Shown here piece after piece: positions 31,577 through 46,861 of a stretch of DNA of 64,000 bases; the stretch's first letter is position 1; every line of letters starts with the position of its first letter. Source of the DNA: Klebsiella oxytoca. GTDB lineage: Bacteria; Pseudomonadota; Gammaproteobacteria; Enterobacterales; Enterobacteriaceae. The stretch covers positions 5,270,001-5,334,000 of the forward strand of contig NZ_CP046115.1 of assembly GCF_009707385.1 (NCBI RefSeq). The letters are read 5' to 3'. The position numbers were made by a program, and so were the translations under genes. The notes beneath the pieces were generated by a model. The model was not told the origin of the DNA, did not search any database, and saw only the letters and a list, made by a program, of their open reading frames with translations.

Positions 31577-31629
31577 CGCGAACGTCATCTCGCCACGCTG
31601 CGCATAATTTTTATTCAGATGAGTGAATT

Positions 31630-32640
31630 ATGAAACGAGAACTGGCCATCGAATTTTCGCGCGTCACTGAAGCCGCCGCGCTGGCAGGCTATAAGTGGTT
31701 AGGCCGTGGAGATAAAAACACCGCCGACGGCGCCGCCGTCAACGCCATGCGCATTATGCTGAACCTGATCAACATCGACGGCACCATCGTGATTGGCGAA
31801 GGCGAAATCGACGAAGCGCCGATGCTGTACATCGGCGAGCGCGTCGGTACCGGCCACGGCGATGCGGTAGATATCGCCGTCGATCCCATCGAAGGCACCC
31901 GTATGACGGCGATGGGCCAGGCGAACGCGCTGGCGGTGATGGCGGTCGGCGATAAGGGCTGTTTTCTGAATGCGCCGGATATGTACATGGAAAAGCTGAT
32001 TGTCGGCCCGGGCGCGAAAGGCACCATCGATCTGAACCTGCCGCTGGCGGAGAATCTGCATAATATTGCCCGCGCGCTGAATAAGCCGCTGAATGAATTG
32101 ACGGTCACCATCTTAGCCAAGCCGCGCCATGACGAGGTCATTGTTGAGCTGCAAAAGCTGGGCGTGCGCGTGTTCGCTATCCCCGACGGCGACGTTGCCG
32201 CCTCTATTCTGACCTGCATGCCGGACAGCGAAGTTGACGTTATGTACGGTATCGGCGGCGCGCCGGAAGGCGTCGTTTCCGCGGCCGTAATCCGCGCGCT
32301 GGACGGCGATATGAACGGCCGTCTGCTGGCACGTCATCACGTTAAGGGCGACAGCGAAGAGAACCGCCGCATCGGCGAAAACGAGCTGGCACGCTGCAAG
32401 GCAATGGGTATTGAAGCAGGAAAAGTGCTGCGTCTGGACGATATGGCGCGCAGCGACAACGTCGTTTTCTCAGCGACCGGCATCACCAAAGGCGATCTGC
32501 TGGACGGTATCACCCGTAAAGGCAATATGGCCACCACCGAAACGCTGCTGATCCGCGGCAAATCCCGCACCATCCGCCGTATTCAGTCGATTCATTATCT
32601 CGATCGCAAAGACCCGGATATCCAGCAGCACATCCTGTAA
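31630..32640 (+). CDS. glpX: Class II fructose-1,6-bisphosphatase
   Basis: 336 aa, the E. coli length. Metal and substrate motifs of the lithium-sensitive phosphatase fold are present: IGEGEIDEAP, DPIEGTR and PDGDVAAS. It hydrolyses fructose-1,6-bisphosphate in gluconeogenesis, needed for growth on glycerol with fbp. Normally third gene of glpFKX; here glpFK is 12 kb away, and the only upstream sequence before recG is 53 bp, so transcription must come from the recG unit or a short local promoter. Confidence 0.96.
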   Translation: MKRELAIEFSRVTEAAALAGYKWLGRGDKNTADGAAVNAMRIMLNLINIDGTIVIGEGEIDEAPMLYIGERVGTGHGDAVDIAVDPIEGTRMTAMGQANALAVMAVGDKGCFLNAPDMYMEKLIVGPGAKGTIDLNLPLAENLHNIARALNKPLNELTVTILAKPRHDEVIVELQKLGVRVFAIPDGDVAASILTCMPDSEVDVMYGIGGAPEGVVSAAVIRALDGDMNGRLLARHHVKGDSEENRRIGENELARCKAMGIEAGKVLRLDDMARSDNVVFSATGITKGDLLDGITRKGNMATTETLLIRGKSRTIRRIQSIHYLDRKDPDIQQHIL

Positions 32641-32659
32641 AACATTTGTTCAATAGAGC

Positions 32660-32683
32660 TTTCCAGCCTTTTCGGGCTGGAAA
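32660..32683 (+). terminator. Terminator-like hairpin after glpX
   Basis: Nine-bp stem TTTCCAGCC / GGCTGGAAA with a short loop, 20 bp past the glpX stop. The following tcttctc tract is only moderately T-rich. Confidence 0.65.
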
Positions 32684-32735
32684 TCTTCTCTCGTCGCGGT
32701 GAAGATACGCTAACGAGATTGAGAGGAGAGATGCT

Positions 32736-33482
32736 ATGGCAAACTGGGTTACAGGCAAAGTCGTAAAAGTTCAAAACTGGACGGATGCGCTGTTTAGCCT
32801 CACCGTCCACGCACCGGTTGAACCGTTCACCGCAGGGCAGTTTGCCAAACTGGGCCTCGACGTTGACGGCGAACGCGTGCAGCGCGCCTATTCCTACGTT
32901 AACGCCCCCGGCAATCCCGATCTTGAGTTCTACCTGGTGACGGTTCCTGAGGGTAAACTCAGCCCGCGGCTGGCAGCTCTAAAGCCAGGCGATGAAGTGC
33001 AGATTGTCAGCGAAGCCGCCGGTTTCTTCGTACTGGAAGAAGTACCGGATTGCGATACGCTGTGGATGCTCGCTACCGGCACGGCGATTGGCCCGTACCT
33101 GTCGATTCTGGAAGAAGGAAAAGACCTGGAACGCTTTAAAAATCTGGTGCTGGTACATGCCGCACGCTATGCCGCCGATCTCAGCTATCTGCCGCAAATG
33201 CAGGCGCTGGAACAACGTTATGCGGGCAAGCTGCGCATCCAGTCGGTCGTCAGCCGGGAAAGCGTCCCTGGTATGCTCACGGGGCGCATCCCGTTCCTGA
33301 TTGAGACCGGCGCGCTGGAAGAGGCCGTCGGCTTGCCGATGAACGCCGAGAGCAGCCACGTTATGCTGTGCGGTAATCCGCAAATGGTACGCGACACTCA
33401 GCAGCTGCTGAAAGAGACCCGGCAGATGACCAAGCACCTGCGTCGCCGTCCGGGTCACATGACCGCCGAGCACTACTGGTAA
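32736..33482 (+). CDS. fpr: Ferredoxin/flavodoxin-NADP+ reductase
   Basis: 248 aa, start preceded by GAGAGGAGAG. The FAD-binding motif RAYSYVN (residues 50-56), the NADP-binding glycine motif LATGTAIGPYLSI and the C-terminal AEHYW mark a bacterial-type Fpr. It passes electrons between NADPH and flavodoxin/ferredoxin, and in enterics is induced by SoxRS. Downstream of glpX as in E. coli, convergent with yiiR and touching its stop. Confidence 0.95.
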   Translation: MANWVTGKVVKVQNWTDALFSLTVHAPVEPFTAGQFAKLGLDVDGERVQRAYSYVNAPGNPDLEFYLVTVPEGKLSPRLAALKPGDEVQIVSEAAGFFVLEEVPDCDTLWMLATGTAIGPYLSILEEGKDLERFKNLVLVHAARYAADLSYLPQMQALEQRYAGKLRIQSVVSRESVPGMLTGRIPFLIETGALEEAVGLPMNAESSHVMLCGNPQMVRDTQQLLKETRQMTKHLRRRPGHMTAEHYW

Positions 33483-45071: not shown

Positions 45072-45092
45072 TTTGACTACGGGACTCATCCT

Positions 45093-46604
45093 ATGACCGA
45101 CAAAAAATATATCGTAGCGCTCGACCAGGGCACCACCAGTTCCCGCGCCGTTGTAATGGATCACGATGCCAATATCATCAGCGTCTCTCAGCGAGAATTC
45201 GAACAAATTTATCCGCGTCCGGGCTGGGTTGAGCATGACCCGATGGAGATCTGGGCATCGCAAAGCTCCACGCTGGTCGAAGTGCTGGCGAAAGCCGATA
45301 TCAGCTCCGATGAAATCGCGGCAATCGGCATCACCAACCAACGTGAAACCGCCATCGTGTGGGAGCGGGAAACCGGTAAGCCGATTTACAACGCCATCGT
45401 CTGGCAGTGCCGCCGTACCGCCGAGATCTGCGAGCAGCTCAAGCGCGACGGCATGGAAGAGTACATTCGTAAGGCCACCGGCCTCGTCGTTGACCCGTAC
45501 TTCTCCGGTACGAAAGTGAAGTGGATCCTTGACCACGTTGAAGGCGCGCGTGAACGCGCTAAACGCGGCGAGCTGCTGTTCGGCACCGTTGATACCTGGC
45601 TTATCTGGAAAATGACCCAGGGACGCGTTCACGTTACCGACTATACCAACGCCTCGCGTACCATGCTGTTCAATATCCACGAGCTGGACTGGGATGACAA
45701 AATGCTCGACGCGCTGGATATCCCGCGCGCCATGCTGCCGGAAGTACGTAAATCTTCCGAAGTGTACGGCCAGACCAACATCGGCGGTAAAGGCGGTACC
45801 CGTATTCCGATCGCCGGCATCGCGGGCGACCAGCAGGCGGCGCTGTTTGGCCAGCTGTGCGTCAAAGAGGGTATGGCGAAAAACACCTACGGTACCGGCT
45901 GCTTTATGCTGATGAATACCGGCGAGAAAGCGGTGGCGTCAACCCACGGCCTGCTGACGACTATCGCCTGCGGTCCGCGCGGCGAAGTAAACTATGCGCT
46001 GGAAGGCGCGGTGTTTATGGCTGGCGCCTCCATCCAGTGGCTGCGCGATGAGATGAAGTTAATTAGCGACGCGTTCGACTCCGAATATTTCGCCACTAAA
46101 GTGAAGGATACCAACGGCGTGTACGTGGTTCCGGCGTTTACCGGCCTTGGCGCGCCTTACTGGGATCCGTATGCCCGCGGCGCAATCTTCGGCCTGACCC
46201 GCGGCGTGAACTCCAACCATATTATTCGCGCCACTCTGGAGTCGATTGCCTATCAGACCCGCGATGTGCTGGAAGCGATGCAGGCTGACTCCGGGATCCG
46301 TCTGCACGCCCTGCGCGTTGACGGCGGCGCGGTAGCCAACAACTTCCTGATGCAGTTCCAGTCCGATATTCTCGGCACCCGCGTGGAGCGCCCGGAAGTG
46401 CGCGAAGTCACCGCGCTGGGCGCGGCCTATCTGGCCGGTCTGGCAGTGGGCTTCTGGCAGAATCTGGATGAGCTACAGGAGAAAGCGGTTATCGAGCGTG
46501 AATTCCGTCCGGGAATTGAAACCACCGAGCGTAACTATCGCTACAGCGGCTGGAAAAAAGCGGTGAAACGCGCGCTGGCGTGGGAAGAGCACGACGAGGC
46601 GTAA
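45093..46604 (+). CDS. glpK: Glycerol kinase
   Basis: 503 aa FGGY kinase: ATP motif [12 protein letters not shown], substrate region [23 protein letters not shown] and C-terminal [13 protein letters not shown]. Phosphorylates trapped glycerol to sn-glycerol-3-phosphate; in E. coli inhibited by EIIA-Glc and fructose bisphosphate. Here it ends the glp unit: a REP array and convergent gltS follow instead of glpX. Confidence 0.97.
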
Positions 46605-46619
46605 GATTGTGGAGGTATT

Positions 46620-46830
46620 CCCGGCTTGCGGCGTAAACGCCTTAGCCGGGCTACAGCCCGCAGACCGCACAACCCCGTAGCCCGGCGAAGCGCAGCGCAA
46701 GCCGGGGAGAAGCCGCGCCGATGCATGAATCCCGGGGTATCCCCGGGTTGCGGCGTACACGCCTTACCCGGGCGACAAAACCCCAAACAGCACGGACCTG
46801 TAGCCCCGATAAGCGCAGCGCCACCGGGGG
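46620..46830. repeat. BIME-like array of four REP units
   Basis: Alternating unit types: 46620-46653 and 46741-46772 (ccgg, ttgcggcgta, aacgcc) and 46677-46707 and 46800-46830 (tagcccggcgaagcgcagcg type). It fills the gap glpK/gltS, the right joint of the relocated block. Confidence 0.8.
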
Positions 46831-46861
46831 ATTTTCCGGAGATATGCACCGCCTCCGGTTT

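Follow-up and report, generated by a model that had tools for sequence, protein, structure and literature searches.

We analysed a stretch of 64,000 nucleotides of the Klebsiella oxytoca genome (the window; positions 5270001-5334000 of its single contig, which has 5,394,761 bases), in which a block of genes running from glpX to glpK lies between recG and gltS. Gene identities were taken from NCBIfam matches, and yiiR and yiiQ, which have no NCBIfam match, were placed by tblastn agreement with their annotated positions in Escherichia coli K-12. The left flank is recG (29462..31576, plus strand, NF008163), which, as judged from its neighbours in E. coli, forms the 3' end of a spoT-trmH-recG gene row (trmH at 28803-29492 by NCBIfam); the recG open reading frame as listed begins upstream of the E. 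coli-like start. Joint 1, a 53 bp spacer (31577..31629), leads to glpX (31630-32640, plus), fpr (32736-33482, plus), yiiR (minus), yiiQ, tpiA (34732-35499), five further genes, cdh (41419-42180, minus), and sbp (42370-43359, minus), which together make up sub-block S' (31630..43359), whose absolute orientation is the opposite of that in E. coli. Joint 2 (43360..43531, 172 bp) separates sbp from sub-block Z' (43532..46604), which consists of zapB (43532-43777, minus), glpF (44154-45071, plus), and glpK (45093-46604, plus), with the zapB-glpF spacer between them. Joint 3 (46605..46861, 257 bp), carrying palindromes that resemble repetitive extragenic palindromic (REP) sequences in this K. oxytoca genome, leads to gltS, the right flank (46862..48100, minus, TIGR00210). 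In E. coli K-12, pfkA-sbp...glpX-glpK-glpF-zapB-rraA stands at one site and recG-gltS at another, and the window order is a cyclic rotation of the former with relative orientations unchanged. The order, orientations, and three joints given in a sequence-only reading of this DNA were thus confirmed by the NCBIfam and tblastn gene calls, and its view of one coherent relocated block with rotated order holds against E. coli K-12.

The sequence-only reading had also expected rraA and pfkA to adjoin elsewhere in the genome. They do: one match ends at 119105 and the other begins at 119168 on the same contig, with a gap of 65 bp between the protein matches, and the donor site is therefore closed. The same closure was seen in all six K-side genomes tested (gaps of about 50 to 65 bp in five and 717 bp in one), a sample without Pseudocitrobacter, Superficieibacter, and the genome G181. 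In E. coli as in K. oxytoca, the replication origin, oriC, is situated between gltS and pfkA, so the block crossed the origin. On the K. oxytoca contig oriC was placed at about 38.2 kb, with gltS about 116 kb away on one side and pfkA about 81 kb away on the other; oriC, pfkA, and recG all match the plus strand, i.e., the oriC segment is unflipped relative to recG and pfkA. With E. coli distances as a proxy for the ancestor, the distance from oriC was roughly kept, the block centre lying 188 kb from it in E. coli and 124 kb in K. oxytoca; the landing site itself is 98 kb from oriC and across it from the old place, which is 188 kb away from oriC. Use of the leading and lagging strands was preserved, glpX being on the lagging side in both orders. 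The chance of a random landing so near the mirror point in the same orientation was put at about 2% (a post hoc estimate from the E. coli distances).

We then determined how the two orders are distributed among relatives. A set of 182 loci was assembled from the window, the best 80 of 107 cdh relatives, E. coli K-12, and the zapB regions of 100 genomes (out of 136 with a zapB match among 197 family genomes searched), with some assemblies present twice. Each was scored by its joints as K-type (the new joints, as in Klebsiella) or E-type (the E. coli joints). Forty-eight turned out to be K-type and 132 E-type, two were undecided (L108 and L038, the latter too short to score), and none was mixed. 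All three new joints were found together in 27 loci, the window included (a few of them representing one assembly under two identifiers), and the recurrence of identical joints in many other assemblies rules out an assembly error: an artefact of the K. oxytoca genome, for which no point speaks, has virtually no chance of being the explanation. K-type were every Klebsiella and Raoultella locus compared, the scorable Kluyvera, Pluralibacter, and Superficieibacter loci, Pseudocitrobacter, and other genera, as well as both Trabulsiella loci, which are rearranged further. Escherichia, Salmonella, Enterobacter, Lelliottia, Leclercia, Kosakonia, Phytobacter, and Citrobacter were E-type; one Citrobacter sp. 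18056 record and three Enterobacter sp. records were K-type and cluster with K genomes. In a separate check, recG and glpX lay within 1 kb of each other in all ten K-side genomes examined, Superficieibacter and the long-branched G181 among them. The most distant loci (L138-L196, zapB identity 82% or less) had E. coli joints in 59 of 59 cases and K joints in none, which shows the E. coli order to be ancestral; as the K order is spread across genera, the move of the block is old. A recent or species-specific event is thereby rejected. The sequence-only reading had described an event in the K. oxytoca genome and had named an order shared by the whole genus as evidence against it; among the loci compared the K order is genus-wide and extends beyond the genus.

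The block move is thus real and old, and we consider it fairly probable that it was made by an ordinary pair of origin-spanning inversions rather than by a circle. With the ancestor written as recG [M][S][Z] rraA, where M contains oriC, the window order becomes recG [-S][-Z][M] rraA. By exhaustive search the reversal distance is 2, and the one shortest path passes by way of recG [-S][-M][Z] rraA. A first inversion, spanning oriC, would have turned the ancestor into this intermediate, and a second, again spanning oriC, would have turned the intermediate into the present order. The several steps that the sequence-only reading required of inversions alone are therefore not needed, and, two inversions being sufficient, neither is a circle. 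Inversions that span the origin are well established and common, as described by D'Iorio and Dewar 2022 (PMC9584773) and Khedkar and Seshasayee 2016 (PMC4889656). Like the origin-symmetric inversions and translocations treated there, the Klebsiella block switched replichore at a similar distance from oriC and kept its leading/lagging orientation; it differs in requiring two staggered inversions instead of one. A limited literature search found no earlier description of the recG|glpX joint. The rearrangement is old, widely shared, and of a known kind.

Further moves of parts of the block in other lineages provide precedents for such inversions. In Trabulsiella guamensis, [argE...yijD] and [yicH xanP gltS glpK glpF zapB] were exchanged between the replichores, a change computed as two reversals: sbp adjoins yijD-fabR-sthA-oxyR-argHBCE on the contig with recG and oriC, and on the contig with pfkA and rraA, yicH-xanP-gltS-glpK-glpF-zapB is flanked by ppc and trmA. 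The inner breakpoints are placed approximately, a ppc-yicH stretch of about 11 kb having no gene assignment. Three genomes of E-side genera outside the K group were also rearranged. In G239 (L112), tpiA...glpX is apart from the DASS transporter gene and glpK, on the oriC/recG contig and on recG's side of oriC; in G242 (L135), glpX...sbp is on the recG contig and recG's side of oriC, apart from glpK-zapB; and in G250 (L145), oriC separates sbp-cdh-DASS from tpiA...glpX, which is on the same side as glpK-zapB. The separate moves in these three show that the glpK-glpX neighbourhood was lost on other occasions too, outside the K group.

The spacers at the breakpoints were searched for repeats. No repeat of at least 20 nt shared among the three joints was found over 31300-47100. 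REP-like palindromes, counted with hand-made regular expressions that missed window joint 3 and E. coli recG-gltS (0 hits each), occurred in E-type loci in the broken spacers pfkA|sbp (22/60), glpX|glpK (17/115), and zapB|rraA (20/114), and in none of three unbroken spacers (0/57, 0/97, and 0/117). In E. coli K-12 the patterns matched pfkA|sbp and glpX|glpK and not recG|gltS or zapB|rraA; a REP-like sequence was recognised by eye in recG|gltS. An E. coli-type REP pattern had no match in the window, where Klebsiella palindromes are present instead: one REP-like family occupies 35564-35597, 42320-42353, 46673-46706, and 46796-46829, in the spacer that follows tpiA and the one that separates cdh from sbp, both unbroken, and in joint 3, whose glpK|gltS spacer varies in length among relatives. 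Such sequences could mark recombination-prone joints, or REPs and tolerated breaks could both sit at transcript ends. Joint 2 retains the sequence preceding sbp that is found also in E-type loci and has a hairpin between sbp and zapB.

The relationships of the loci were studied by FastTree on 179 loci (L038, L108, and L182 left out; L026 and L105 are parts of one T. guamensis genome), by IQ-TREE on 30 to 31 genomes, and by approximately unbiased (AU) tests, for which G181 was left out of the protein sets and Citrobacter gillenii out of the single-gene tests. The region gene tree placed the window with K. oxytoca, K. grimontii, K. michiganensis, and K. spallanzanii, a group that we take to be the Klebsiella oxytoca complex. 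It contained a main K clade of 39 (support 83). Outside this clade, Pseudocitrobacter was placed next to Escherichia/Citrobacter/Salmonella (97), Superficieibacter next to E-type genomes (91), and G181 next to one E-type genome (96). A single K clade was not rejected by the region's own proteins (p 0.195), by these together with four housekeeping proteins (p 0.104; p 0.372 without Superficieibacter and G201), or by rpoB (0.056) and recF (0.067) singly.

Several results count against one pair of inversions on one branch, a history that predicts a single K clade. The K-type lineages did not form one clade in the region gene tree, and a single K clade was rejected by the four housekeeping proteins together (p 0.0009) and by rpoC (0.002) and gyrB (0.0008) alone. 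The intermediate with recG|glpX, sbp|pfkA, gltS|glpK, and zapB|rraA was also absent, none of the 180 scored loci having mixed joints; this is no strict objection, as an intermediate so old may have no surviving descendants. The tree positions of Pseudocitrobacter, Superficieibacter, and G181 and the rejections by the housekeeping set, rpoC, and gyrB would be accounted for if the K order had arisen independently in several lineages, or been lost and regained, by repeated inversions reusing the four intergenic breakpoints, and the restriction of REP-like palindromes in some E-type genomes to the three broken spacers fits as well. We nevertheless hold such recurrence to be quite unlikely. One K clade survives in the tests with the region's proteins, all proteins combined, rpoB, and recF, and the housekeeping set carries conflicting signal, since a group of Escherichia, Salmonella, and Citrobacter is likewise rejected by it (p 0.045). 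Kluyvera and Pseudocitrobacter, moreover, have in common an unusual sequence before sbp and cluster in the housekeeping DNA tree, and REPs are expected at transcript ends in any case, the window copies lying in two unbroken spacers besides joint 3.

The sequence-only reading had proposed that the block was excised as a circle, opened at a point between glpK and glpX, and inserted to lie between recG and gltS. This yields the identical final order, and as one event it would account for the lack of loci with K and E joints mixed. Excision and reinsertion, however, are two cut-and-join steps as well (by reasoning, without computation), so the end product cannot favour a circle over the inversions. 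What is known of mobile circular elements does not fit the joints either, at which no integrase, insertion sequence, or attachment-site repeat was seen: no transposase or integrase was found among 20 proteins scanned around the block, and the joints are spacers of 53 to 257 bp between housekeeping genes with no repeat of the length searched for in common. The REP-like repeats at glpK|gltS are no old scar, since that spacer is merely 66 to 110 bp long in many relatives. A circle would also make a coincidence of the near-mirror landing across oriC with kept strand use, and further moves of block segments took place in Trabulsiella, G239, G242, and G250, the two-way swap in Trabulsiella being impossible with one circle. 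We therefore regard the circle as decidedly unlikely and retain the pair of origin-spanning inversions.

The rearrangement splits an operon. E. coli glpX is described as lying in an operon with glpF and glpK and being co-expressed with them (PMC4227036), and inter-replichore moves are said in PMC4889656 to break operons rarely; the Klebsiella case departs from the latter in that glpFKX is split. The genes are the same as in E. coli, and glpFK retains its preceding spacer, whereas glpX in the window is 13 kb away behind recG instead of directly 3' of glpK. The position behind recG and the upstream region kept by glpFK were both correctly called in the sequence-only reading. Its claim of altered glpFK control was not borne out, there being no visible change in the zapB-glpF intergenic region that travelled with the genes; glpX alone gets a new transcriptional neighbour. 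That spacer holds a weak GlpR-operator-like site (44120..44137, plus) with 5 mismatches to the consensus, a score reached by 3 of 300 shuffles. A dosage effect, also claimed, was rejected: the predicted copy change caused by the move is at most 5% (at a C/tau of 2), and the predicted difference between glpX and glpK is below 1%.

The sequence upstream of glpX also changed. A promoter-like element, TGTGnTAnAnT, was present in the 60 nt preceding glpX in 98 of the 119 E-type loci that could be read (in 78 of these, 42 to 45 nt before the start), and we infer that it is a promoter. It was present in 10 and absent in 26 of 36 K-type loci. The ten holders are four Kluyvera, four Pseudocitrobacter-like loci, and L028/L103, and three of them carry a recG-glpX insert or the same sequence (L028, 4.3 kb; L103, the L028 sequence; L100, about 1 kb). 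Every readable Klebsiella and Raoultella locus lacked the element, as did joint 1 of the window, in contrast to most E-type loci, and a scan of window positions 31300-31800 found neither a sigma-70 hexamer pair nor a plus-strand terminator-like site. Because the element is missing from every readable Klebsiella, glpX is probably transcribed there by read-through from spoT-trmH-recG. On the most likely reading, glpX would have come to depend on recG transcription after the move, and its own upstream element would have decayed. Promoter loss is a motif argument, and it is weakened by the 21 of 119 E loci without the strict motif, by the ten K loci that keep it, and by the hexamer scan, which gave no standard promoter in the E. 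coli glpX upstream spacer either.

The locus offers a clean case of an origin-spanning rearrangement that splits a textbook operon. It may serve as a rare-genomic-change marker for the poorly resolved Klebsiella/Kluyvera/Pluralibacter/Pseudocitrobacter radiation, or as evidence of repeated breakpoint use. It is possible, if unlikely, that the identical three-joint order arose more than once in Enterobacteriaceae by inversions breaking at a few recG/glpX/sbp/zapB spacers, some of them REP-bearing, with glpX repeatedly leaving glycerol control and, in Klebsiella, joining the stringent-response row of spoT. A testable prediction is that glpX of glycerol-using Klebsiella would no longer be induced together with glpFK; the separation of glpX and the disappearance of the element upstream of it are what is worth testing.

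Several smaller features were noted at the block. The five genes between tpiA and cdh, all on the minus strand, encode a DASS transporter, a GntR regulator, an ADP-ribosylglycohydrolase-like protein, a sugar kinase (PfkB family), and a GPH transporter, and are missing from the E. coli K-12 order. The DASS gene occupies this interval in many relatives; the other four (37014..41153) are a patchy insert within S' that plays no part in the rearrangement. Loci of K. oxytoca, K. grimontii, K. spallanzanii, R. terrigena, and Raoultella sp. BIGb0138 carry the insert between the DASS gene and cdh, and those of K. michiganensis and K. pneumoniae do not have it at that place. At joint 2, an exact 21 bp tandem duplication was found at the zapB 3' end (43505-43546), and the sbp-zapB spacer of the window exceeds that of its nearest relatives by about 22 bp; L014, L023, and L114 carry an insertion of 4.2 to 4.5 kb there, between zapB and sbp. 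At joint 3, gltS was not adjacent in 7 of the 48 K-type loci (L014, L018, L021, L118, L123, L130, and L137), where glpK adjoins xanP, and gltS seems to have been lost repeatedly in the neighbourhood of this joint. A selenocysteine tRNA gene lies at 59995-60089 of the window; its E. coli counterpart is likewise on the gltS side of oriC.

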